A stretch of 32,250 nucleotides of DNA from an endosymbiont of Lamellibrachia barhami (GTDB lineage Bacteria > Pseudomonadota > Gammaproteobacteria > Chromatiales > Chromatiaceae): positions 467,942 through 500,191 of the forward strand of contig NZ_JAAVSH020000001.1 in the NCBI RefSeq assembly GCF_011947365.2. Reading direction: 5' to 3'. The position numbers and the translations under genes are program-made. The notes beneath the pieces were generated by a model. The model saw only the letters and a program-made list of their open reading frames with translations. It did not search any database and was not told the origin of the DNA. Each line of letters opens with the position of its first letter. The first letter of the stretch is position 1. Below are positions 3,913 to 32,250 of this stretch, piece after piece.

Positions 3913-4350
3913 TCAGTCGATGGCTTCCATCCGCTGCAGCAACTCGGAAGCTTGGCTGCCAAGTACCTGATCCGACATCTGATAGAGCATCTGCTCCTCT
4001 TTGGCATTGTGTTGCTGCATAACCACCAACAGCGTATCCGACAATCCCAGATAGCGATCCTGATCCCTGGCTTTTACACTCTCAGCCATCTCTTGAAACA
4101 GATCACGCATCTGCGCATGTTCGCCACGCATCACCTCTGTCGGCCCCATGGCCATGCCGGTAGTCTCCTCAAAGGCGGGAAACAGCACCTCTTCCTCCAT
4201 TTTAAAATGGTGCTCCATGGCTGCGTGAAACACCCCGAATTGAGTTGCAGCAGCCTCCCAGTCCCCCTTCGCCGCCTCGTCTTCCGCTGCGGCAAATATC
4301 CCATCACAACGCCGATGGTCATGTGTCATCGTTGCAGAAATGGTGCTCAT
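3913..4350 (-). CDS. Hemerythrin HHE domain protein
   Basis: The 145-residue single-domain hemerythrin is a four-helix bundle binding a non-haem di-iron centre. Candidate iron ligands in the expected order are H10/H12 (THDH), H48 with E52 (HHFKMEEE), H78 (GEHAQM) and H114 with E118 (QQHNAKEE). Bacterial members bind O2 or NO, or deliver iron for repair of nitrosatively damaged centres. It is the first gene of the NO-response operon. A promoter with a perfect Dnr/Fnr-type box lies about 60 bases upstream. A short AGAGG sequence precedes the ATG at 4348-4350. Confidence 0.88.
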   Translation of the reverse strand: MSTISATMTHDHRRCDGIFAAAEDEAAKGDWEAAATQFGVFHAAMEHHFKMEEEVLFPAFEETTGMAMGPTEVMRGEHAQMRDLFQEMAESVKARDQDRYLGLSDTLLVVMQQHNAKEEQMLYQMSDQVLGSQASELLQRMEAID

Positions 4351-4375
4351 TGATGCCTCTGGCTACGTTAAAATC

Positions 4376-4424
4376 ATGGGAAGTATTAACCAAAAGTACA
4401 GAGAGAATCTTTGACAAACGTCAA
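4376..4424 (-). promoter_or_regulatory. Dnr/Fnr-type box and -10 element of the hemerythrin operon
   Basis: TTGACAAACGTCAA at 4411-4424 is a perfect inverted repeat of TTGAC spaced by four bases, the layout recognised by Dnr/NnrR/Fnr regulators. On the minus strand a TAATAC -10 element sits at about 4383-4388. A start of transcription near 4376 would put the box centre at about -41.5, the classical class II activator position. The leader would be about 26 nt. The last gene of the operon encodes a Dnr-like regulator. Confidence 0.75.
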
Positions 4425-4496
4425 CACAAAGGTGACATATCTCAGAAGATTTTAATTCCTGGGGGGTTATTCTATATTTTACCCTGGAGTTACCCG

Positions 4497-5149: not shown

Positions 5150-5899
5150 TTATTTGGAAAACACTTTTTTCAGCAGATCAGTGGTTCTGGCGGTGGGATT
5201 CTCCCGGATCTGCTTCTCCTGTATGGCGATATATTTGAACAGACCGTCCATGGCCTGGTCGGTGACATACCGATCCAGATCCAGTGAGTCGGTGTCGAAA
5301 AAGCCGCCAAGCATCCCGCCCGCCTGGCCCAACAGGGATTTATAGGCCGAGGTGACACCGGCACTGTTCGTGGCCCGTTCTACAATCGGGCGGAATTTCT
5401 CCTCCAGTTGTGCTTCACTGCTCTTGCGAAAATATTGCGTTGCGGCATCGTCTGATCCATTCAAAATGGATTTGGCATCTCCGACACTCATGTCACGAAT
5501 GGAATCGCCCAGGATTGCCGACGCCTCCGGCACAGCCTGTTCGGCAGCCCGATTCAGCGTTGTGATAAATTCATCGACATAGTGCCCCTGCCCTGTCTTA
5601 CGGGCAATCGATTCAATCGTCTTTAGAGAATCAGGCATAGCGATGCGCACCAGTTCGTCAGACAAAAAACCATCCGTCTGGCCCAACCGATTGATCGCGG
5701 TCTCGACACCATTGGCAAGCGCCTCTTTCAGTCCGGAAGCAACTTCACTGTTGCTCAGTACCGATTCTGTAGCGGTTTCAACCGTGTCGCTCTCGATGAA
5801 CTGCTTGAAGATACTTCTCCAATCGCCTTGGGCACTCGATGCCAGTACTGTCAGTACAACCGCTGCCACAAGCAGTCGGGTAAGTTCGAGCTGTTTCAT
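5150..5899 (-). CDS. DUF4197 family exported protein
   Basis: The 249-residue protein has an N-terminal signal peptide (about residues 1-25, cleavage after SSAQG). The body matches the DUF4197 family across its length: LSNSEVASGLKEAL, INRLGQTDGFLSDELVRIAMPDSL, NRAAEQAVPEA, MSVGDAKSILNGSDDAATQYFR and a C-terminal GLFKYIAIQEKQIRENP. The family is widespread in proteobacteria, probably periplasmic, and its function is unknown. The ATG follows GAGGACAGGG, a good ribosome binding site. It lies 14 bases downstream of a small leftward gene and may be co-transcribed with it. Confidence 0.88.
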   Translation of the reverse strand: MKQLELTRLLVAAVVLTVLASSAQGDWRSIFKQFIESDTVETATESVLSNSEVASGLKEALANGVETAINRLGQTDGFLSDELVRIAMPDSLKTIESIARKTGQGHYVDEFITTLNRAAEQAVPEASAILGDSIRDMSVGDAKSILNGSDDAATQYFRKSSEAQLEEKFRPIVERATNSAGVTSAYKSLLGQAGGMLGGFFDTDSLDLDRYVTDQAMDGLFKYIAIQEKQIRENPTARTTDLLKKVFSK

Positions 5900-5913
5900 T
5901 ATCCCTGTCCTCT

Positions 5914-6198
5914 TTATACATTCATGGATTCTGTGTCAGAAACTTCAGGAGCCTGTTTTTTCAGCTCATCCAGAAACTCCAGTCTACACAATCTGAGCCG
6001 ATCGGTCCGCCACATGATCCGCACCCCTTCCCGCTTGAAAAGGTCGCTCTTGGCATCCATACCTCCCGTGACATTCGTCCATCCCTGGGCATCATGAATA
6101 CAAGACGGCGTAAGAGCGGCCGGTTTCAGTGAAACAGAACCGGACAGGCTGGAAGCACTTCGCAAGTCATTGTTTTGACTTTTGTCAGTTTTCTTCAT
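5914..6198 (-). CDS. Small hypothetical protein carrying a dispersed repeat at its 3' end
   Basis: This is a possible 94-residue protein (MKKTDKSQNND...). The ATG at 6196-6198 has AGG six bases upstream. An open frame extends further right to 6330, but without a better start. It is rich in polar residues, with no signal peptide or known domain. The last third (RTDRLRLCRLEFLDELKKQ...) is repeated at nucleotide level at 10650-10741, where reading continues past the point at which this copy stops. The coding status is uncertain. It may itself be a gene fragment placed upstream of the DUF4197 gene. Confidence 0.4.
   Translation of the reverse strand: MKKTDKSQNNDLRSASSLSGSVSLKPAALTPSCIHDAQGWTNVTGGMDAKSDLFKREGVRIMWRTDRLRLCRLEFLDELKKQAPEVSDTESMNV
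5919..6006 (-). repeat. Dispersed repeat copy A (partner at 10650-10741)
   Basis: About 88 bases, starting ACATTCATGGATTCTG and ending GATCGGT on the plus strand, recur at 10650-10741. The copies differ by scattered substitutions and single-base indels. Both have the same orientation. Copy A has an open leftward frame; copy B does not. Confidence 0.75.
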
Positions 6199-6338: not shown

Positions 6339-9071
6339 ATGAGTAAAAACAGTGATTTGACGAGAATCAAACGACCGGTGTTGCTACCGCTGGCCGTGAC
6401 ATTCATTATTCTAACGAGTGCATTTCTCGCTTCAATTCTATGGATTGAGCAAGAGCATGCAAGAGAAAAATTCCTCTCTCTCAAGAGTTCCATCGAAGCC
6501 TCTTTCCTGAGGAAACTGGATGATGAGGCGGCGCTGCTTTCCAGCCATCTCTTTTTCATCAGCAACAGCAGCTGCTTTCAAAATGCCTGGAGGAGTCAGG
6601 ACAGACAGGCATTGCTGGCATGCAGTAGACCCGTCTTTCAGCAAATGCAGGCGTTTTTCCAAGTCTCCGAACTAAATTATATCACAGACGATTTCAACTA
6701 TTTTTTGCGTGTTAACGAGCCCTCAAGATATGGAGATTCTGAGCGTGGCCGAGTTGTGCACCGTGCTGCCAATACCGGCGAACTCAGTTATGGCCTGGAG
6801 CTATCCCAACGGGGCCAACTCCTCCTGGTAATTGCCAAACCCTGGCATATTGAAAACAGTACTCCTGGTTTTATCGAAATGGAGATCGATATATCTGATG
6901 TTATCTATGAGGTTGCAACTGTACAGAATGTGGATCTTTTTGCTTTCATTGAAAAACCGGAGATCAATAGGGCATTGTGGAGGCAAGAAGCAAGCCTGTC
7001 CGAGAGCGACTATGGTTGGGAGTTCCTGGAAAACCACATTGTCACAATTGGCGACCCATTGAGTTTTCCCTATAAACAGAAACATTTTTTTGACGGCCAC
7101 ATTATCGAAGATGAAGAACTGGCGATCAGCTACAGAGACAAGGAGCGCTCCTACTCATTAGGCAAGTTCCCTCTGCTTGACGAGGCCGGTCGTTATATCG
7201 GCCATATTGGTATAATCCTTGATAACACAGAGGAGCAGATTGCGATATGGGGGCTGCTCGGGCGTTTTCTTATCCTCTTTCTGGTGGCGGGCGGCATCCT
7301 GTTTTTGTTGTTTGTCCGTTACCTTGGCCGTATTGATCTGAGGCTGGCAACAGTATACCACGATCTGCATCAGGAGATTACTGAAAGAAAAAGAATGGAG
7401 ATCTCTCTGCGCAAGCTTTCGAGTGCGGTTGAGCAGGGTGCCAGCGCAGTTGTGATCACCACTGATCAAGGAGAGATCGAGTATGTCAACCCCCGCTTCA
7501 CTGAAGTAACCGGTTACTCTTTGGATGAGATTAGAGGGAAAACGCCCAGAATATTGCGCTCGGGGGAGACCCAGGCTAACAGATACAAAGATCTCTGGAA
7601 TACCATTTTGGCAGGACGGCACTGGGTTGGCGATCTGCACAACCGTAAGAAATCCGGAGAACTCTACTGGAGCCATCTCTCCATTTCACCGATTACCACA
7701 GATAGTGGAAAGATCACTAATTACGTGGCAGTCAGTGAAGATGTCACTGAGCTGAAATCAGCCCATGAACAGATGGAACGCATGGCCTTCTACGATACCC
7801 TGACTGAACTGCCAAACCGCCGTCTGTTCAAGGACCGGTTAGAGTGGGCCATTAAGGATGCATCCAGAAAAGGTAGTTCAGTGGCACTTCTGTTTCTCGA
7901 TCTGGACCATTTCAAACATGTGAATGATACCTTGGGACATGAGGCAGGGGATTTGCTGCTGAAAAGCGTAGCCCGGACGTTGACAAAGAGCGTAAGGGGA
8001 AACGATACGGTAGCACGTCTTGGGGGGGATGAGTTCACCATTCTTCTGACGGATATACAGAACCCTTCCGCTGCCAGAAAAGTAGCGGAAAAGATTTTAC
8101 AGTCACTGCGATCACCGGTTTACCTGGAGGGTAAAGAGGTCACAATAACCACCAGCATCGGTATTACGTTGGGTCCTGAGGATGGAATCCATGCCAGCAC
8201 GCTGATGAAATATGCTGACCTCGCCATGTATAAAGCCAAGGAGAAGGGACGAAAAAACTATCAGTTCTACACCTCTGCAATGAATGACGAGGTACAGCAA
8301 AGGGTTAGAATTGAAAGGGAGTTGACCAGTGCGCTGGAGAACAGTGAATTTCGTCTTTTCTACCAGCCGCTAATCCGTATCCATGATCGAAAAATGGTGG
8401 GAATGGAGGCTCTGATACGCTGGCAGCATCCGAAACGTGGCCTGCTATCGCCATATGAGTTTCTCACAGTTGCAGAGGAGACAGGCCTGATCAACTCAAT
8501 AGGTGATTGGGTATTGCGTCAGGCCTGTCAGGATACGGCTGACCTCCATCGCGACGGATATGGCGATATTGTTGTATCTGTGAACCTTGCGGCCAGCCAG
8601 TTCCGGGATGTACATCTCCCGAAAACCATTAGCGGGATTCTGACCGAAAAAAGCGTGGAAAGCCGATGGTTGGATCTGGAAATTACCGAAAGTATCCTGA
8701 TGGAAAATACCGATCAGGTAGTTGAAACACTGCAGCACCTCAAGGCCTTGGGAGTGACACTTTCGGTGGATGATTTCGGGACCGGATACTCATCCCTGAG
8801 TTATCTGAAACGTTTTCCTGTGGACCGTTTGAAAGTGGATCGCTCATTTGTTCAGGATATACCGGGTGACCGCAATGATGTGGAGATTACTGCGGCCATT
8901 ATCGCGATGTCCCATAAACTGAACCTGCAAGTGGTTGCCGAAGGTGTTGAAACAGCAGAGCAGTTTGAGTTTCTCCAGCAGAATGCTTGCGATATATGTC
9001 AGGGATATATGTTCAGTGAGCCAGTGCCGATCAACAAACTCAGACAGTACCTGGAGGAGCAGAAAAAATAG
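6339..9071 (+). CDS. Membrane-anchored PAS-GGDEF-EAL cyclic-di-GMP signalling protein
   Basis: The 910-residue sensor has a membrane segment at about 15-35, a large periplasmic (Cache/CHASE-like) domain to about 300, and a second membrane segment at about 308-330. A PAS domain with a PAC segment follows at roughly 355-475 (SAVEQGASAVVITT, FTEVTGYSLDEIRGKTP). The GGDEF domain has intact GGDEF near residues 562-566 and the inhibitory RxxD site (RGND) five residues before it. The EAL domain has intact EAL near 690, plus conserved NLAASQF, ITES, VDDFGTGYSSLSYL and VAEGVE. Diguanylate cyclase and phosphodiesterase activities both look possible, and which dominates cannot be told. It is monocistronic and divergent from the small gene at 5914-6198. 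A weak GAGACAG site precedes the ATG. Confidence 0.95.
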   Translation: MSKNSDLTRIKRPVLLPLAVTFIILTSAFLASILWIEQEHAREKFLSLKSSIEASFLRKLDDEAALLSSHLFFISNSSCFQNAWRSQDRQALLACSRPVFQQMQAFFQVSELNYITDDFNYFLRVNEPSRYGDSERGRVVHRAANTGELSYGLELSQRGQLLLVIAKPWHIENSTPGFIEMEIDISDVIYEVATVQNVDLFAFIEKPEINRALWRQEASLSESDYGWEFLENHIVTIGDPLSFPYKQKHFFDGHIIEDEELAISYRDKERSYSLGKFPLLDEAGRYIGHIGIILDNTEEQIAIWGLLGRFLILFLVAGGILFLLFVRYLGRIDLRLATVYHDLHQEITERKRMEISLRKLSSAVEQGASAVVITTDQGEIEYVNPRFTEVTGYSLDEIRGKTPRILRSGETQANRYKDLWNTILAGRHWVGDLHNRKKSGELYWSHLSISPITTDSGKITNYVAVSEDVTELKSAHEQMERMAFYDTLTELPNRRLFKDRLEWAIKDASRKGSSVALLFLDLDHFKHVNDTLGHEAGDLLLKSVARTLTKSVRGNDTVARLGGDEFTILLTDIQNPSAARKVAEKILQSLRSPVYLEGKEVTITTSIGITLGPEDGIHASTLMKYADLAMYKAKEKGRKNYQFYTSAMNDEVQQRVRIERELTSALENSEFRLFYQPLIRIHDRKMVGMEALIRWQHPKRGLLSPYEFLTVAEETGLINSIGDWVLRQACQDTADLHRDGYGDIVVSVNLAASQFRDVHLPKTISGILTEKSVESRWLDLEITESILMENTDQVVETLQHLKALGVTLSVDDFGTGYSSLSYLKRFPVDRLKVDRSFVQDIPGDRNDVEITAAIIAMSHKLNLQVVAEGVETAEQFEFLQQNACDICQGYMFSEPVPINKLRQYLEEQKK

Positions 9072-26316: not shown

Positions 26317-26985
26317 CTATGTTGAGCTGGACTCCACCGGAAAACCCTCCATGCGCCACTCCGGCAGACCACCATCCAGACGTCTGGCTTTAACGCCTCT
26401 CTCCCGCAGCTTCGCAACGGCATCGAATGCCAGTACGCAATGCGGTCCACGGCAGTAGGCAACAACCTCTTGGGAAGGATCCAGTGCATCCAGCTGCTTT
26501 TCCAATTCTGCCAGCGGAATATTGATCGCGCCCGGCAGGTGTCCCGCTGCATACTCCTCCGGTGGACGCACATCCAGCACAGTCACCAGACCATCCCTGA
26601 CCCTCTCCAGCAATTGCGCCGCCGGAATAGGTTCCAGACTGTCCTTGACCTTGAGATAGTCATCGACAAGACGATCCACGTCAGCCAGATGGCGCTCCGC
26701 CACTTCTCTTAGCGAGCCAAGCAGGGCCGAGACATCCATACCACTCAACCGGTAGTAGACCTTGTGACCCGCTTTGCGGTTAATGACCAATCCAGTCTGC
26801 CTGAGCTGCTGCAGATGTTGGGAGGTATTGGCCACAGTCAGACCTGAGACCTGGGCCAAGGCATCCACGCTACGCTCGCCCTGGGCCAGAAACTCCAACA
26901 GTTCCAACCGGTAGCCATTGCTCAGCGCCTTGGCGACACGGGCAAACTGGCTGAAAAGATCGTGTTTAAAATGACCTGTTGACAT
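26317..26985 (-). CDS. ArsR-family repressor fused to a rhodanese domain
   Basis: The 222-residue protein has an ArsR winged helix (about residues 10-100; SVDALAQVSGLTVANTSQHLQQLRQTGLV is the DNA-binding part) and a rhodanese domain (about 120-218). The active-site loop is YCRGPHCVLA, with Cys178 as predicted sulfur acceptor and Cys183 nearby. The ArsR part has no cysteines, so sensing of persulfide or other reactive sulfur would have to occur through the rhodanese domain; that is inference. It is divergent from the redox cluster starting at 27079, with palindromic sequence between them, and probably controls both directions. It converges with tamB. Confidence 0.9.
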   Translation of the reverse strand: MSTGHFKHDLFSQFARVAKALSNGYRLELLEFLAQGERSVDALAQVSGLTVANTSQHLQQLRQTGLVINRKAGHKVYYRLSGMDVSALLGSLREVAERHLADVDRLVDDYLKVKDSLEPIPAAQLLERVRDGLVTVLDVRPPEEYAAGHLPGAINIPLAELEKQLDALDPSQEVVAYCRGPHCVLAFDAVAKLRERGVKARRLDGGLPEWRMEGFPVESSST

Positions 26986-27078: not shown

Positions 27079-27942
27079 ATGAACTGGCACGACTGGATTC
27101 TGGGCAATGAGTTGCCCATTCGCCTGAGTTTTTTCTTCGGCATCTTTGCCATTATGGCAGGGTGGGAGATCCTCTCACCCGCCCGCACCCTCACCGTCCC
27201 CAAGGGTATTCGCTGGGCCAATAATCTGGGACTGGTGTTTCTCAACAGCATTGTGCTGCGGCTGCTCTTTCCGGCAGCTGCGGTGGGAGTTGCCGCCTTT
27301 GCTCAAGAGCAAGGCTGGGGGCTGTTCAACTTCTATGAAGTACCCTTCGTTCTATCGGCCATCATTGCGGTGATCGCGATGGATCTGGTGATCTATCTAC
27401 AACATGTAATGGTCCACGCGATACCTGTTCTTTGGCGCCTGCACCGGGTACATCACGCCGATCTGGACTACGACGTCACCACCGGCGCGCGCTTCCATAC
27501 CCTGGAGATCATCCTCTCCATGCTGATCAAGTTCACCACCATTCTGCTGCTGGGTCCACCCGTGGTGGCTGTGGTGATCTTCGAGGTGGTGCTGAATGCC
27601 ACTGCCATGTTCAACCACAGCAATGTCCGACTGCCAATAAGTCTGGACCGGGTAGTGCGCTGGTTCCTGGTCACGCCTGATATGCACCGCGTACACCATT
27701 CGGTGGAGGACGATGAGGCAAACAGCAACTTCGGTTTCAGCCTGCCCTGGTGGGATCGGCTGTTTGGCACCTATCGGGATCAACCCAGAGGCGGTCACGA
27801 AGGCATGACCATCGGCATCCACAAATACCGCGATCCGCAACAGGTCAATCAGTTGCCCGGTATGCTGGCGCTGCCTTTTGTCGGCAAGATCAGTGGTTAC
27901 GCCATCAACCGCCGTGAATGGAGCAGTCACGATGAAAACTAA
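27079..27942 (+). CDS. Sterol desaturase / fatty acid hydroxylase family membrane protein
   Basis: The 287-residue protein has several membrane helices and the eight-histidine di-iron signature of the family: H109/H113 (HVMVH), H122, H125 and H126 (HRVHH), H180 (FNH) and H203, H206 and H207 (HRVHH). Such enzymes hydroxylate or desaturate lipids using O2. The bacterial substrate is unknown. It ends in a conserved GTYRDQPRGGHEGMTIGIHKYRDP region. It is the first gene rightward of the ArsR-rhodanese operator, so it is probably under that control. Similar genes are often found with sulfide-responsive clusters. Confidence 0.88.
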   Translation: MNWHDWILGNELPIRLSFFFGIFAIMAGWEILSPARTLTVPKGIRWANNLGLVFLNSIVLRLLFPAAAVGVAAFAQEQGWGLFNFYEVPFVLSAIIAVIAMDLVIYLQHVMVHAIPVLWRLHRVHHADLDYDVTTGARFHTLEIILSMLIKFTTILLLGPPVVAVVIFEVVLNATAMFNHSNVRLPISLDRVVRWFLVTPDMHRVHHSVEDDEANSNFGFSLPWWDRLFGTYRDQPRGGHEGMTIGIHKYRDPQQVNQLPGMLALPFVGKISGYAINRREWSSHDEN

Positions 27943-28033: not shown

Positions 28034-28318
28034 ATGAACACCCTGATCATATTGAACGACCCACCCTACGGCACTGAACGCAGCTATAACGGTCTGCGCC
28101 TGGCCAAGGCACTGAGCAAGGCAGATGCGAAGGTCACGCTGTTTCTGCTGGCCGATGCGGTGGTCTGTGCAAAACGTGGACAGAAGGTACCTCAGGGATT
28201 CTACAACATCGAACTGATGCTCAAATCCATCATACGTAAATTCGTAATCTCTCATCCATTCTTGGCAACAAACTGGCCGGAGTGCAGCCGGAAGGCATTA
28301 TGCCCGGAGATGATTTGA
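28034..28318 (+). CDS. DsrE-family protein, truncated or frameshifted
   Basis: The first two thirds match the DsrE-like family (NTLIILNDPPYGTERSYNGLRLAKALSK, VTLFLLADAVVCAKRGQKVP, GFYNIELMLKSIIR), with a strong AAGGAG site before the ATG. After about residue 69 the protein leaves the family pattern. The usual C-terminal half with its CGTC-type cysteine motif is absent. The following bases in another frame read LAGVQPEGIMPGDDLTVRSR up to a TGA at 28342, which is not recognised. The gene is probably a remnant left by a deletion. DsrE proteins carry or sense sulfur, fitting the ArsR-rhodanese context. Confidence 0.7.
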   Translation: MNTLIILNDPPYGTERSYNGLRLAKALSKADAKVTLFLLADAVVCAKRGQKVPQGFYNIELMLKSIIRKFVISHPFLATNWPECSRKALCPEMI

Positions 28319-28358: not shown

Positions 28359-28427
28359 ATGTCCATGATAACCAAACAGCCACCGGGTGGCCGCTGCACT
28401 CTGTATATACGCATTGTCTACCCATGA
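28359..28427 (+). CDS. 22-residue ORF coupled to the NapH-GltD fusion gene
   Basis: MSMITKQPPGGRCTLYIRIVYP begins after a strong GAGGAG site (eight bases before ATG). Its TGA overlaps the ATG of the next gene (ATGA at 28424-28427). It may be a genuine leader peptide that couples translation to the following gene, or the collapsed remnant of a deleted gene whose start and stop signals survived. No homology is recognised. The fusion gene has no other good ribosome binding site, so this ORF probably matters for its expression. Confidence 0.4.
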   Translation: MSMITKQPPGGRCTLYIRIVYP

Positions 28428-30760
28428 ATCCAGTCAGCCGACAAGAATCCCCTCTGACCTACAACGCCCGCCCCAACGGCGCGGCACACCAGGACACCCT
28501 GCCGGGGCGCTATCGCTGGTGGGTGATGACGCTCTCCATGGCCGCCTTCACTCTGGCCTTCGTCGGCTGGCTCAATGAGTCCTGGCTCTATCTTTTCGAG
28601 AGCCCTATCTGGCTCAACCGCTATACCGAATATGCCATTATCCTTGCCTTTGGCCTCTGGCGTATCCGCGCTGAACAGAACCCCTATACCCGCAAACGTC
28701 TGATCATTCTGGTGACGGTGGTGACCGGATTCTGGTGGCTGATCCCCTGGTTGATACCGATGTTCGAGCCTTATGCCGGTTACGTCTGGAGCCAACCGGT
28801 GTTCCCCGCCCTGCACACACCGGGCACCCTCACCTTCCTTCTCACACTGATACTGGTCTTCCTCTTCGGGCGGCGCATCATCTGCGGCTTCGGCTGCCCC
28901 TGTGTGGGCGTGCGCGAGACCGTGGGCTTTCCCTTCCGCCGTTTCTCACTGCGCAGCGATTGGGCCTGGCGGCTGCGCCATACCAAGTGGTTTTTCTTCG
29001 TCTGGTACGTGGGGGTGATGGTAGCCACCCAATTCCCACCCAATGCCTGGACCGCAACCCTGGTCGGCATGTTCGCGATGGTGGTGGGACTCACCTATTT
29101 CGGCACCTTCTTCATCACCCCGATCACCGGCAATCGTTTCTACTGCCGTTACCTCTGTCCCTTCGGCGCCACCTTTGGGCTGCTTAATCACGCCGGTTTC
29201 TATGGCATCGAGATGGACACGGAGCGGTGCATCGACTGCCAACGCTGTGAGCAGGCCTGCGACATGGGCATCCCTGTGTGGCGGCAGGGAAAATCAACTG
29301 GTGAGGTCACTGGTATAGAGGACTGCATGGGCTGCGCCCGCTGCATCATCTCCTGCCCCACCGATGCGCTGGCGATTCACGATGTACGCAACCTGTTTCG
29401 GCTCGCTCTGCGGCAGGATGCCAGCCATCTGCTGAAGCGAAAACCACAGCTCCCGACCCCTCGGACTGAAGCCGTTCACCGACCGGTGACAGAACGCCTG
29501 AGCGACTGGAATCAAGCGGAAGAATTGCTCTCTTCTGACGACCTGAAACGCCAGGCAGAACGCTGCCTCGATTGCGGTGTTCCCGGCTGCCGCAATGCCT
29601 GCCCGCTGGGTAATTTCATCCCCGACTGGCTGGAGGCTGCCGCCCGTGGAGATTGGAAAACTGCTGGAGATCTGGCCCATGCGACCTCACCACTGCCCGA
29701 GGTATGCGGCAGCATCTGTCCTCAACACCGTCTCTGCGAAGGTGCCTGCACCCGCAACCAGATGGAAGGGGCTGTCACCATCGGCGCAGTCGAACGAACC
29801 CTGGCCGAACGGGCATTGGATGCAGGCTGGCGACCGCTCGAACCGGCGCACCGAACAGGACGCAAGGTGGCGATCATCGGCGCCGGTCCGGCGGGTCTGA
29901 GCTGTGCGGAACGCCTGAACCGGACTGGCGTGGAGGTCACCGTTTATGATCGATCAAACAAGATCGGCGGCCTGCTGCAAACGGGTGTTCCATCATTCAA
30001 GCTGGACAAGGCTCTGCTGGCGCGACGACAGACCCTGCTGGAAGAGGCTGGCATCCGCTTCACTCTCGGCATGGCGGTGAACGGTGTCATGTTGTCTCGT
30101 TTACTTGAGCAGAATGACGCCATCTTTCTTGGACTGGGCGCGCAGAAACTACGCTCCATCGAGTTGCCTGGAGAGACTCTCAGCGGCGTTGAGCAGGCGC
30201 TTGGCTGGCTGGATAGAATCAATGCCGGCGAGAGAGAATCATTGACCGGCCAACGGGTATTGGTTATCGGCGGCGGTGATACGGCGATGGACTGCGCCCG
30301 TTCCGCACTGCGCCTGGGGGCAGAGGTAAGCGTTGCCTATCGCGGCCCGGAGGAGTGCCTGCGCGCCTCGCCCAAGGAGGTCAAACTGGCCCGCGAGGAG
30401 GGAGCCAGATTCCTGTTCCAACACATCCCACTCGAATGTGAAGGTGCGTTCAAGGTTCATGGGATGCGCTTCGGAACGCCGGAGGGAACGGCAGTCGTTG
30501 GCGCCGACCGCATCATTCTCGCCCTTGGCCAACTCGCCGACCCACCAGTCTGGCTTGGGAGCTTTGGCATTATCACCGAGCCAGACGGGCGTATCCGTGT
30601 CGATGCCCAGGGCCGCACCAGTCACGCCAGAATCTGGGCGGGTGGCGATAATATCCTGGGCCCCAATCTGGCGGTCAACGCCATGGCCACTGGTCTCACT
30701 GCGGCTGAGGGCATACTGACCAGTTTCAGTCCGTTGCAACGCATTCGGCGGCAGGCATGA
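28424..30760 (+). CDS. NapH-type membrane ferredoxin fused to GltD-type FAD/NAD(P)H oxidoreductase
   Basis: This 778-residue fusion has four or more membrane helices (about 33-235) with NapH/NosR-type cysteine motifs CGFGCPC (154-160) and CRYLCPFG (241-248). Two 4Fe-4S ferredoxin motifs follow: CIDCQRCEQAC (269-279) and CMGCARCIISC (301-311). From about 375 to the end it is a glutamate-synthase-small-subunit-like unit. This has Fe-S cysteines 381, 384, 389, 393, 428, 432, 438 and 442, an FAD fold GAGPAG (487-) and an NAD(P)H fold GGGDTA (616-). The layout predicts electron exchange between NAD(P)H and the quinone pool or a periplasmic partner. Downstream are two c-type cytochrome genes, with overlapping start and stop codons throughout. 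The direction of electron flow cannot be told. Confidence 0.9.
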   Translation: MNPVSRQESPLTYNARPNGAAHQDTLPGRYRWWVMTLSMAAFTLAFVGWLNESWLYLFESPIWLNRYTEYAIILAFGLWRIRAEQNPYTRKRLIILVTVVTGFWWLIPWLIPMFEPYAGYVWSQPVFPALHTPGTLTFLLTLILVFLFGRRIICGFGCPCVGVRETVGFPFRRFSLRSDWAWRLRHTKWFFFVWYVGVMVATQFPPNAWTATLVGMFAMVVGLTYFGTFFITPITGNRFYCRYLCPFGATFGLLNHAGFYGIEMDTERCIDCQRCEQACDMGIPVWRQGKSTGEVTGIEDCMGCARCIISCPTDALAIHDVRNLFRLALRQDASHLLKRKPQLPTPRTEAVHRPVTERLSDWNQAEELLSSDDLKRQAERCLDCGVPGCRNACPLGNFIPDWLEAAARGDWKTAGDLAHATSPLPEVCGSICPQHRLCEGACTRNQMEGAVTIGAVERTLAERALDAGWRPLEPAHRTGRKVAIIGAGPAGLSCAERLNRTGVEVTVYDRSNKIGGLLQTGVPSFKLDKALLARRQTLLEEAGIRFTLGMAVNGVMLSRLLEQNDAIFLGLGAQKLRSIELPGETLSGVEQALGWLDRINAGERESLTGQRVLVIGGGDTAMDCARSALRLGAEVSVAYRGPEECLRASPKEVKLAREEGARFLFQHIPLECEGAFKVHGMRFGTPEGTAVVGADRIILALGQLADPPVWLGSFGIITEPDGRIRVDAQGRTSHARIWAGGDNILGPNLAVNAMATGLTAAEGILTSFSPLQRIRRQA

Positions 30761-31365
30761 AGCGGATCATTCTTCTGCTTATGATCTTTTGTCTGCCGCA
30801 GCCAGTCGCAGCCAGCCATCCATCGGCGGGTATAGATCTGTGCGAGATACACAAAGACAAACTGCCGCCCGGCCTTACTGCCGAATCACTCCCCGATCCA
30901 CAATCGCCTGGGGCAGCGTTGCTGCATCAATACTGCACCCAATGCCATAACCTGCCAGGACCTGATCGCCACACGGCTGGCGAGTGGCGCGAGGTAACAC
31001 CCAAGATGTTTCTGCTGATGGATGTTTCGCACCGTTTCGGCGGATTGATGGGCCGGGTGGAGATCATGCAGAGAGAGGAACAGGAACGTTTGCTGGTCTA
31101 TCTGGAGCGCCATGCGATTGATGGGGTCGGAGTCAAACCGCTCGACCCCCGTCACTACTCCCAGCATGCTTTGCGCGGTTTGGACGAGCGGGGTCGGAGT
31201 CAAACCGCTCACGATAGTCACATCAACCCTGCATCTTCACGCGGTTTGACTCCGACCCCTGGAGAGAACGACCACTGGCTAACGCGCCTTTGGGTTCTGG
31301 CTCCTTTCCTGTTGCTGATGGGGGTAGGTCTGTTCCGCTGGTGGAGGCATAGTCACCATGCGTAA
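30757..31365 (+). CDS. Membrane-anchored monoheme cytochrome c with REP-like insertion
   Basis: The 202-residue protein has a signal peptide (about 1-20), a cytochrome c domain with one haem site CTQCH (C60, C63, H64), and a C-terminal membrane helix (about 176-195). M89 or M98 is a possible distal ligand. It should sit in the periplasm, anchored to the inner membrane, and pass electrons between the NapH-GltD fusion and the downstream multihaem cytochrome. Residues about 123-168 (GVGVKPLDP...SRGLTPTP) are encoded by a tandem palindromic repeat (31123-31259) and are not part of the fold. The start overlaps the fusion stop (ATGA), and the stop overlaps the next start. Confidence 0.85.
   Translation: MKRIILLLMIFCLPQPVAASHPSAGIDLCEIHKDKLPPGLTAESLPDPQSPGAALLHQYCTQCHNLPGPDRHTAGEWREVTPKMFLLMDVSHRFGGLMGRVEIMQREEQERLLVYLERHAIDGVGVKPLDPRHYSQHALRGLDERGRSQTAHDSHINPASSRGLTPTPGENDHWLTRLWVLAPFLLLMGVGLFRWWRHSHHA
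31123..31259. repeat. Two tandem REP-like units inside a cytochrome gene
   Basis: GGGGTCGGAGTCAAACCGC occurs at 31123-31141 and 31190-31208, and inverted (GCGGTTTGACTCCGACCCC) at 31241-31259. A degenerate inverted copy GCGGTTTGGA lies at about 31174. Two units of about 67 and 70 bases, each with inverted ends, are therefore arranged head to tail. The reading frame of the cytochrome stays open through both. Confidence 0.88.
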
Positions 31366-32233
31366 TCGAATCATCATCCCGCTGGTAATCGCCCTGCTGG
31401 CCCTTTCTGCAGGCTTTGCCTATGTGCACTGGAGCAAAGGGGGAGCCGGCACCGGTCTCTACTCCCGTTACTGGTCACCCGATCCGGTACAGGGCTATTG
31501 GGACCCGGAAAACTTCTACCAGTCACCAGATTCGGTCCAGGGCATTTTCACAGGCAAACAGTGTGTCCAGTGCCATGAGGGGATCACCCCCGGCATAGTC
31601 AACGACTGGCGTGCCAGCCGCCATGCTCAGGGCGAGGAAACGGTCTATTGCAACGACTGTCACGGCAATGACCATCAGCAGTTACGCCTACCCACTCCTG
31701 ATGTGTGTGGCAATTGCCACGCAAAACAGCACGACGAATTCAGGGATGAGGCCCGCTACGGTTTTCCCAGCCATGTCCTGGCGATGGAACGGGCAGTGGA
31801 TGCCAAGCACTTCGTGGACAAACCCAAGGCCGAGGTCCAATCCTGTGTCCAGTGCCATTCGGTGGCCACCAAGTGCGACTCCTGCCATAGCCGACACCGT
31901 TTCAATGCCGCGGAGGCACGCCGTCCTGAAGCCTGTATCACCTGCCACTCAGGGCCGCCGCATCCCGATGATGAAACCTACTTCGCCTCCGCCCACGGCA
32001 AACTCTACCTGGCCGAAGGAGACAGTTGGGACTGGTCCAAACCACTGACCAAGGGTATCACAGCACCCACTCCAGTTTTACTGCCATGGACAACGGACGC
32101 CATCAGGTTGCCGAGAAGTCCCTGTGGAAGTTCGGCCTGTGGGAGATCACCATACCTCCAAAAACTCAGGTGCTGCGCAAGAAATGGTCAAACTTGCAGC
32201 GATTGCTACCGAAGAGGAAAGAGCAATACGTAA
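31358..32233 (+). CDS. HAO-family multihaem cytochrome c, frameshifted in its 3' part
   Basis: An N-terminal signal anchor (about 5-24) is followed by six haem sites at C69, C98, C117, C163, C173 and C193 (CVQCH, CNDCH, CGNCH, CVQCH, CDSCH, CITCH). Spacing and flanking residues (SGPPHPDDETYFASAHGKLY) match the octahaem hydroxylamine-oxidoreductase family. Past about residue 240 the annotated frame is nonsense. The conserved segment MDNGRHQVAEKSLWKFGLWEIT lies in another frame (32087-32152). The eighth haem site appears as CSDCY, with the histidine lost. Two or more indels therefore break the gene, through real decay or sequencing error. Family members reduce nitrite or hydroxylamine, or oxidise hydroxylamine. 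Confidence 0.8.
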   Translation: MRNRIIIPLVIALLALSAGFAYVHWSKGGAGTGLYSRYWSPDPVQGYWDPENFYQSPDSVQGIFTGKQCVQCHEGITPGIVNDWRASRHAQGEETVYCNDCHGNDHQQLRLPTPDVCGNCHAKQHDEFRDEARYGFPSHVLAMERAVDAKHFVDKPKAEVQSCVQCHSVATKCDSCHSRHRFNAAEARRPEACITCHSGPPHPDDETYFASAHGKLYLAEGDSWDWSKPLTKGITAPTPVLLPWTTDAIRLPRSPCGSSACGRSPYLQKLRCCARNGQTCSDCYRRGKSNT

Positions 32234-32250
32234 CTGAACGAAGTATACTT

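Follow-up and report, generated by a model that had tools for sequence, protein, structure and literature searches.

What would electrons do in a protein that is at once a membrane Fe-S protein and an NAD(P)-dependent flavoprotein, encoded directly before cytochromes? The question is raised by positions 28424 to 30760 of the window (the whole stretch of DNA analyzed here, 32,250 nucleotides). The initial annotation had proposed that one polypeptide joins a NapH/NosR-type and a GltD-like unit there, and this was borne out: a single ORF of 778 amino acids encodes, without a break in frame, a NapH/NosR-type membrane Fe-S protein and a GltD/NfnB-like unit for FAD and NAD(P), with Fer4_5 and Fer4_7 followed by Fer4_20 and then Pyr_redox_2, all above the Pfam gathering score.

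The NapH/NosR-type half (28424..29458, forward strand) has membrane helices, the CX3CP motifs C154/C158 (plus C160) and C241/C245, and two [4Fe-4S] ligand sets (C269-C279 and C301-C311). The best 60 of its 96 matches to solved structures are ferredoxin-like, mostly photosystem I PsaC. The GltD/NfnB-like half (29459..30760, forward strand) presents the Rossmann motifs, the eight Fer4_20 cysteines (C381-C393 and C428-C442) and the fold of an NAD(P)-FAD Fe-S oxidoreductase: the FAD motif GAGPAG stands at residue 486, the NAD(P) motif GGGDTA at 616, and NfnI and GltD structures match it with TM-scores, by target, of 0.84-0.86. At residue 639 the window protein reads YRG, not YRR. According to excerpts of PMC7596348, the NADP phosphate is bound in NfnB by YRR, a motif that also identifies DsrL-2, the NADP(H)-dependent type. 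The window fusion does not carry this mark of NADP(H)-specific NfnB and DsrL-2, and YRR is absent from 40 of 48 fusions (present in 8); given that YRR is the NADP-phosphate motif, this points to NAD(H) as the probable cofactor.

Scanning for two short peptide patterns yielded 61 public loci, among which distant and unfused relatives are undercounted because of those patterns. The same domain order, which the initial annotation had proposed to look for in other genomes, recurs: both halves lie in one ORF in 55 loci and in overlapping frames in two (L064 and L112), while NapH stands alone in four. Carriers include tubeworm symbionts, Thiodiazotropha, Thiobacillus and further Gammaproteobacteria, and of the 15 matches in a sample of 321 genomes of the class, 14 have open frames of 780-899 amino acids, enough for the fusion. 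When 47 of the 49 complete fusion rows were aligned together with the window, the 48 one-ORF proteins aligned across both halves; the 21 cluster-type cysteines were invariant in 48 of 48, as were both CX3CP motifs and both 4Fe-4S ligand sets of the NapH half. Separate genes in relatives joined by an indel here, the alternative that the annotation had named, were not found: except for the overlapping frames at two loci, GltD lies within 1.5 kb of a stand-alone NapH in none of 19 loci.

In 17 of these 19 loci the stand-alone NapH is followed by an octahaem cytochrome. A tree built without L112 and L113, which are too short, needs a single change between the fused and stand-alone states; since the dividing branch is poorly supported (47-52) and the rows are long, this is consistent with a single origin of the fusion and goes no further. 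The older form would likely be an unfused NapH beside the octahaem, still seen in Magnetococcales and presumably quinol-fed, and an NADH port would have been gained when NapH became fused to GltD. The unfused Magnetococcales version thus offers a natural before-and-after comparison, as the fusion may have changed the electron source.

Downstream, the TGA of the fusion gene (30758-30760) overlaps the ATG of the next gene at 30757, whose own TAA (31363-31365) lies past the octahaem ATG at 31358. The overlapping start and stop codons claimed initially are therefore confirmed, as are the two kinds of cytochrome said to follow. The first (30757..31365, forward strand) is an anchored monohaem cytochrome with one CxxCH and, by hydropathy, a hydrophobic segment at the N terminus and another, C-terminal, at residues 175-193. 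Its counterparts in relatives are dihaem, or a haem-less membrane peptide of about 70 amino acids; a mono- or dihaem cytochrome is present in 25 of the 43 loci having at least 3.5 kb downstream, and the peptide takes its place in 13 of the 61 loci. An octahaem follows the fusion in 38 of the same 43 loci (it is missing from L089, L098, L099, L105 and L107), and in the class sample it occurs in 14 of 15 fusion genomes versus 2 of 306 others. The expectation of conserved neighboring cytochromes hence holds for the octahaem, but not for the monohaem cytochrome.

The second gene (31358..32250, forward strand; PF13447, E=2.3e-30) encodes an HAO-family cytochrome with an N-terminal membrane anchor, and the window holds only its 5' part, which enters an assembly gap. 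The annotated span to 32233 had to be corrected: the ORF ending there is not the whole octahaem, as profile homology ends near 32071 and the remainder is out of frame, owing to a frameshift ahead of the gap. A run of 298 N (L009 4193-4490) starts exactly at the window end, and the 3' part lies beyond it. A stretch of 196 bases a little way ahead of the gap (L009 3967-4162) aligns at 89%, and with 12 gap openings, to the 204 bases that directly follow the gap, which suggests contig ends of poor quality. Of 63 other loci examined, 48 have a complete gene with eight haem motifs and 435-459 amino acids. In the one-contig genome G090 (locus L045) the octahaem is spread across several reading frames, and this copy is therefore either broken or misread. 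A pentahaem cytochrome gene (L009 5170-6042, outside the window) follows the octahaem.

The active site of the octahaem was read from an alignment of 40 of the 48 complete rows. The family profile PF13447 matches (E=5.5e-42 in L044), and eight CxxCH motifs are present in 40 of 40 rows, which were picked for having eight; the window copy is interrupted. The tyrosine of the P460 cross-link is absent, with a gap in its column in 48 of 48 octahaems; 38 of 40 have no tyrosine anywhere in the loop, and L066 and L109 have one elsewhere in it. The aspartate of the HAO Asp-His pair, which we take to be D267-H268 of NeHAO, is not kept either: the motif reads GPPHPD in 39 of 40 rows (Pro) and GTPHPD in one (Thr), whereas reference alignments show the aspartate kept in 6h5l and NeHAO. 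The best solved relatives are HAO-type enzymes, including 6h5l, presumably the Tyr-less enzyme of Kuenenia; the AlphaFold model of the octahaem is poor (pLDDT 62.7). Tyr-less HAOs are regarded as reductive in excerpts of PMC12758564, and given the absent tyrosine the best reading of the sequences is an octahaem of the reductive type. Because the aspartate is replaced in all 40 rows, the protein may also be a mere electron relay.

The gene set is common to many sulfur-oxidizing bacteria, including tubeworm and clam symbionts. In the class sample, dsrA is present in 14 of 15 fusion genomes versus 90 of 306 others (p=8e-7); this and the following p values overstate the associations because the genomes share ancestry. 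ArsS, NarG and NapA were counted in 66 genomes, namely the 15 with the fusion and 51 (the first listed) of the 90 fusion-negative dsrA genomes. NapA occurs in 12 of 15 fusion genomes versus 22 of the 51 (p=0.018), the comparison for NarG or NapA is not significant (p=0.14), and neither gene was found in three of the 15 fusion genomes, of which two have a completeness of 97% or more. Of the nitrogen or sulfur substrate initially suggested, the sulfur side thus gains strong associations and the nitrogen link is weaker. NrfA and PF02239 were counted in 48 genomes (the 15, plus 33 from the contrast set of 51; NapA was the reason for choosing 22 of the 33): NrfA (PF02335) was found in none, and PF02239 (cd1-type, presumably also taking in NirF/NirN) in 12 of the 15 with the fusion and 18 of the 33 without it. 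Given these counts there is no clear nitrite gap, and the octahaem was rejected as the filler of one.

The set begins 5' of the region first annotated. A divergent regulator of the ArsR family that carries a fused rhodanese domain (26317..26985, reverse strand; HTH_5 and Rhodanese) is likely a sulfane-sulfur sensor, and is present in 33 of the 43 loci having at least 4.5 kb upstream and missing from 10. It is followed by an FA_hydroxylase/sterol-desaturase-like membrane protein (FAH; 27079..27942, forward strand; PF04116, E=3.6e-30) and by a 3'-truncated DsrE-like gene (28034..28318, forward strand): about the first 69 residues match 115-residue relatives, beyond which the sequence diverges and lacks CGTCMDARG. 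VTT-rhodanese and TauE genes lie alongside the set in some loci. In the window's genome, arsP, arsJ, a gapdh-like gene and arsR come after the cytochromes. An ArsS gene adjoins the set in L099. In 5 of 15 fusion genomes (G123, G158, G178, G202 and G274) an ArsS-type gene shares the contig with the fusion, about 10 kb or less away; despite this proximity, arsenic was rejected as the function, since ArsS, found in 12 of 15 fusion genomes, is no commoner there than among the 51 other dsrA genomes (38).

One polypeptide, then, combines an NAD(P)-FAD unit with ligand sets for four [4Fe-4S] clusters and a NapH/NosR membrane core, and it is encoded beside a Tyr-less HAO-family octahaem. We read the set, with confidence about evenly balanced, as a transmembrane NAD(H):octahaem oxidoreductase of sulfur oxidizers under sulfane-sulfur control. 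NADH would reduce the FAD on the cytoplasmic side, and electrons would pass through the two GltD-type clusters and the two NapH ferredoxin clusters to a center held by the membrane CX3CP cysteines. From there, whether or not by way of the small cytochrome, they may be passed to the membrane-anchored octahaem and to the pentahaem, and these would reduce a periplasmic acceptor. The natural source of NADH would be cytoplasmic rDsr/DsrL sulfur oxidation, and the acceptor would most likely be a partly oxidized sulfur species or some other reactive compound encountered in sulfidic surroundings; both direction and substrate are what we infer, and nitrite is a possible substrate that we do not favor. 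As far as sequences can tell, the dedicated NAD(P)H-to-periplasm route proposed initially agrees with what is conserved, namely the fusion, its invariant cluster ligands and the octahaem; the monohaem cytochrome is a variable part. Counting against our reading are the five loci without the octahaem, the broken or misread copy in G090, the loci that lack FAH or the ArsR-rhodanese, the eight fusions with YRR, the ArsS genes near the fusion and the replaced aspartate of the octahaem.

The rival that survives best, possible though rather improbable, is that the octahaem reduces nitrite, NO or hydroxylamine in the manner of anammox HAOr, with NADH as donor. HAOr turns nitrite into NO according to excerpts of PMC12485887, the best solved relatives are HAO-type enzymes such as 6h5l, and NapA is commoner in fusion genomes. 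However, some fusion genomes, two of them nearly complete, have neither NarG nor NapA, the combined comparison is not significant, and most already have PF02239; moreover, Pro or Thr replaces the aspartate that 6h5l and NeHAO retain, and nitrogen genes were not noticed in the neighborhoods read, by inspection rather than a dedicated search.

Flow in the opposite direction is unlikely in our view: the octahaem would oxidize a low-potential periplasmic donor (sulfite or other reduced sulfur) and the fusion would reduce NAD+, giving an autotroph NADH without the quinone pool. The hosts are mostly sulfur oxidizers, as the dsrA counts indicate, and TauE and rhodanese genes lie nearby, yet to our knowledge NapH and NosR act solely as outward donors, and we know of few periplasmic donors lower in potential than NADH. 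DsrL enzymes work in both directions, that of A. vinosum being faster in NAD+ reduction, as excerpts of PMC7596348 state; against this, the octahaem is without the tyrosine that marks oxidative HAOs in excerpts of PMC12758564.

It is less likely again that NapH or NapH-GltD mainly serves the adjoining FAH, the cytochromes being a separate or added branch. Membrane di-iron hydroxylases require an electron donor; L106 consists of ArsR-rhodanese, FAH, NapH and DsrE with no cytochrome in the 10 kb covered, none of the cytochromes was found in L107, and FAH lies 5' of NapH in 11 of the 19 unfused loci and is present in 31 of 43 loci. Yet it is missing from 12 of the 43, 11 of which have the octahaem, the more constant partner. 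That the fusion is an artefact, two genes united by an indel or misassembly, has a negligible chance: the overlapping frames at L064 and L112 and the gap at the window end could suggest it, but the census, with one ORF in 55 of 61 loci and alignment across both halves, refutes it.

The NADH-to-periplasm reading has a stronger form, which we put forward tentatively and hold to be doubtful: a new class of transmembrane NADH:cytochrome oxidoreductase that would need neither quinones nor Rnf, Nqr or complex I and would pass DsrL-derived NADH electrons directly to a periplasmic octahaem. The octahaem, with its non-canonical active site, would act on a sulfur compound, and sulfane sulfur would switch the system on. 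As far as we know, NAD(H)-periplasm electron routes in chemosynthetic sulfur symbionts are poorly mapped; if the reading is true, a single-protein bridge with a conserved octahaem bears on the NADH balance of its carriers, and NAD(H) use and the octahaem substrate are precise targets.

A literature search found no published description of a NapH-GltD-octahaem set, which is a new arrangement of already known modules. Rnf, Nqr and complex I also carry electrons from NADH through Fe-S centers to the membrane, whereas here one polypeptide adjoins a periplasmic octahaem. Like NapH and NosR (TIGR02163, PF12801), the fusion has membrane helices followed by a pair of CX3CP motifs and a pair of [4Fe-4S] ferredoxin sets, and it differs in being joined to an NAD(P)-FAD unit; nap or nos genes were not noticed beside it, and it scores below the curated NapH cut-offs (TIGR02163, 70.3 versus 213.05; NF007013, 62.1 versus 234). 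With GltD, NfnB, DsrL and AegA-YgfT it shares the Fer4_20, FAD and NAD(P) domains, but it is membrane-anchored via NapH. It is under the flavoprotein cut-offs as well (GltD TIGR01318, 407.2 versus 482.95; AegA, 372 versus 1003; YgfT, 299 versus 1154), and the YgfT model matches residues 262-769, a span that begins in the ferredoxin part of the NapH half. No gltB was noticed in the neighborhoods read, by inspection rather than a gltB query. Eight CxxCH, PF13447 and the absent P460 tyrosine are shared with the HAO-family octahaems that have no tyrosine cross-link, namely the anammox HAOr kustc0458/0457 (excerpts of PMC12485887) and epsilon-HAO; HAOr, too, has a redox partner encoded alongside. 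What sets the present octahaem apart from Tyr-less HAO octahaems is its N-terminal membrane anchor and the loss of the aspartate of the Asp-His pair (GPPHPD).

The initial annotation described a single polypeptide joining NapH and GltD, and a 778-aa ORF of this composition was found at 28424-30760 of the window. Its Pfam matches are Fer4_5 and ferredoxin domains (residues 220-316), Fer4_20 (residues 360-467) and Pyr_redox_2 (residues 481-757). The overlapping starts and stops also hold: the ORF of the small cytochrome opens at 30757 and shares bases with the stop codon of the fusion, and the octahaem cytochrome gene begins at 31358, ahead of the small cytochrome's stop. Aligning 48 fusions yielded 21 invariant cysteines (C154, C158, C160, C241, C245; C269-C279; C301-C311; C381-C393; C428-C442), located at the sites expected for clusters or membrane motifs. 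The FAD motif reads GAGPAG in 44/48 fusions; 47/48 carry GGGD[ST]A as their NAD(P) motif. The AlphaFold2 model presents a pLDDT of 81 and a pTM of 0.72, and its GltD half aligns with NfnI and GltD structures with TM-scores of 0.84-0.86 by target. According to an excerpt of PMC7596348, a YRR triplet accommodates the NADP phosphate in NfnB. Given the equivalent triplet is YRG in the window's fusion, and YRR is absent from 40 of the 48 fusions (the other 8 keep it), most members are predicted to use NAD(H) rather than NADP(H).

The same domain order was searched for in other proteins by scanning the NapH half, as two short peptide patterns, against GTDB species genomes. This yielded 61 loci, 55 of which carry NapH and GltD sequence in one ORF; L064 and L112 have both halves in overlapping frames, and L106, L107, L109 and L110 have NapH alone. 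Titles include symbionts of Lamellibrachia and Escarpia, Thiodiazotropha, Thiohalobacter, Thiogranum, Sulfuricaulis, Thiobacillus, Thioploca, Methylophaga and many Gammaproteobacteria. Of 321 genomes sampled evenly across the class, 15 matched the NapH part at E<=1e-80; the open frame measures 780-899 aa in 14 of these, enough to accommodate the fusion, and 470 aa in G319. Sampling 398 genomes from the phylum gave 26 genomes at E<=1e-70, with shorter frames, mostly about 375-550 aa, the window's genome excepted; one 705-aa frame (L131) begins in non-NapH sequence, and G650 has a broken 205-aa match. Nineteen of the shorter-frame loci were read: the octahaem lies downstream in 17, an ArsR-rhodanese regulator gene is present in 15, a FA_hydroxylase/sterol-desaturase-like gene (FAH) in 11, and a GltD match within 1.5 kb of NapH in none. 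In two of these loci the NapH part has exactly the sequence found in L109 and L110, which are Magnetococcales loci. Given these unfused loci mostly have the octahaem and lack GltD, NapH with octahaem may be the older arrangement, to which GltD was added later. The tree requires one change between fused and unfused states, the dividing branch being weakly supported.

Conservation of both cytochromes with the fusion stood for the octahaem, found in 38 of the 43 loci whose downstream sequence extends 3.5 kb or more, but less so for the small cytochrome, a mono- or dihaem protein found in only 25; a pentahaem cytochrome is present in 37. Thirteen of the 18 octahaem loci without the small cytochrome have a peptide of about 70 aa in its slot between fusion and octahaem (L070, L071, L075, L078, L080, L082, L085, L086, L087, L088, L090, L091 and L114), and L096 has a look-alike. 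The peptide begins like a signal sequence, contains a stretch rich in histidine and a single hydrophobic segment, and has no CxxCH; the haem of the small cytochrome therefore appears to be dispensable. After the set, L080 (14854-17594) encodes a further five-CxxCH cytochrome and a MerA/dihydrolipoyl-dehydrogenase-like flavoprotein.

The octahaem ORF, annotated as reaching 32233, had to be revised, since profile homology stops near 32071 and the remainder is out of frame. In L009, a locus record of the window's genome, an N run (4193-4490) begins exactly at the window's end; the rest of the gene lies beyond it, up to 5170, followed outside the window by the pentahaem gene (5170-6042). The 204 bases that open the sequence beyond the gap align at 89%, with 12 gap openings, to 196 bases lying a little ahead of it, a pattern suggestive of poor contig ends. 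Among 63 other loci inspected, 48 have an intact eight-haem gene encoding 435-459 aa. The octahaem of G090 is distributed over several frames (L045), and in the Escarpia spicata symbiont (L057 12911-14410) octahaem and pentahaem form one ten-CxxCH ORF, as if joined by deletion.

Upstream, among the 43 loci that extend 4.5 kb or more in that direction, ArsR-rhodanese is found in 33, FAH in 31 and DsrE in 20. By analogy with related ArsR repressors (PMC10451225), ArsR-rhodanese is a putative sulfane-sulfur sensor. Further neighbours, each noted in one locus, are a VTT-rhodanese fusion (L080) and TauE/SafE with further DsrE genes (L099). The window's DsrE gene (28034-28318) breaks off at roughly residue 69; a foreign tail like its own (ISHPFLATNWP) also occurs in L010, from the same genome, at 8639-8959, which suggests an inserted repeat. 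L010 also carries the initial 82 residues of the fusion a second time, at 85% identity (8089-8334, minus strand; G000:C1:534088-534333). This copy enters an N gap of 500 bases, on whose far side lies part of an RND-type efflux gene; either the region was truly duplicated or it was misassembled. At L010 2318-4565, two c-type cytochrome genes of 277 aa, nearly identical to each other, stand in tandem with an N gap between them. Arsenic-related genes follow the cytochromes in L009 (7110-11013): an ArsP permease, an ArsJ transporter scoring over the NCBIfam cut-off, a GAPDH-like gene and an ArsR gene, a run recurring in L054, L055, L057 and L067. ArsS adjoins two fusion loci without octahaem (L099 14923-17092, over the TIGR04167 cut-off; L098 9684-11773), as do, by eye, ArsM-like and glycosyltransferase genes.

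The 15 fusion genomes of the class sample were compared with its 306 others (dsrA at E<=1e-30, octahaem profile at E<=1e-60). The p values are guides only, because genomes share ancestry: dsrA is found in 14/15 versus 90/306 (p=8e-7; G123 lacks it), and, against 51 other dsrA genomes, NapA in 12/15 versus 22/51 (p=0.018) and NarG or NapA in 12/15 versus 29/51 (p=0.14). The octahaem profile matches 14/15 fusion genomes, G319 being the exception, versus 2/306 others, both much weaker matches. NarG occurs in 2/15 versus 12/51, ArsS in 12/15 versus 38/51 (no more than about 10 kb away from the fusion in 5/15), and PF02239 in 12/15 versus 18/33 others; NrfA was found in none of 48 genomes searched.

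Among solved structures, those nearest to the octahaem are HAO-type enzymes (6t5e, 4n4j, 6hif, 6h5l and 1fgj). At the position of the cross-link tyrosine, 48/48 octahaems show an alignment gap, and in 38 of 40 aligned sequences the loop has no tyrosine at all (by the alignment, L066 and L109 have one elsewhere in the loop). The aspartate of the Asp-His pair is replaced by proline in 39/40 and threonine in 1/40. HAOs without the tyrosine are treated as reductive in an excerpt of PMC12758564.

What the sequence establishes is the parts, their order and their conservation. Electrons would pass from NADH to FAD, four clusters, the membrane centre and the octahaem, a route presumably directed outward, because the octahaem's tyrosine is missing and NapH and NosR are known to pass electrons outward. 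Nitrite or another N-oxide is a possible acceptor; a putative sulfur-related acceptor is preferred, since no other association observed is as strong as the one with sulfur oxidation.

Literature topics covered NapH together with GltD, octahaem together with rhodanese, HAO in the organisms that carry the set, HAO combined with NapH and sulfur oxidation, and sterol desaturase combined with DsrE and ArsR; among the matches listed in open-licence PMC papers, no title or abstract start describes the fusion or the gene set. In comparison with known systems, the modules of the fusion gene set are known, and their order is new.
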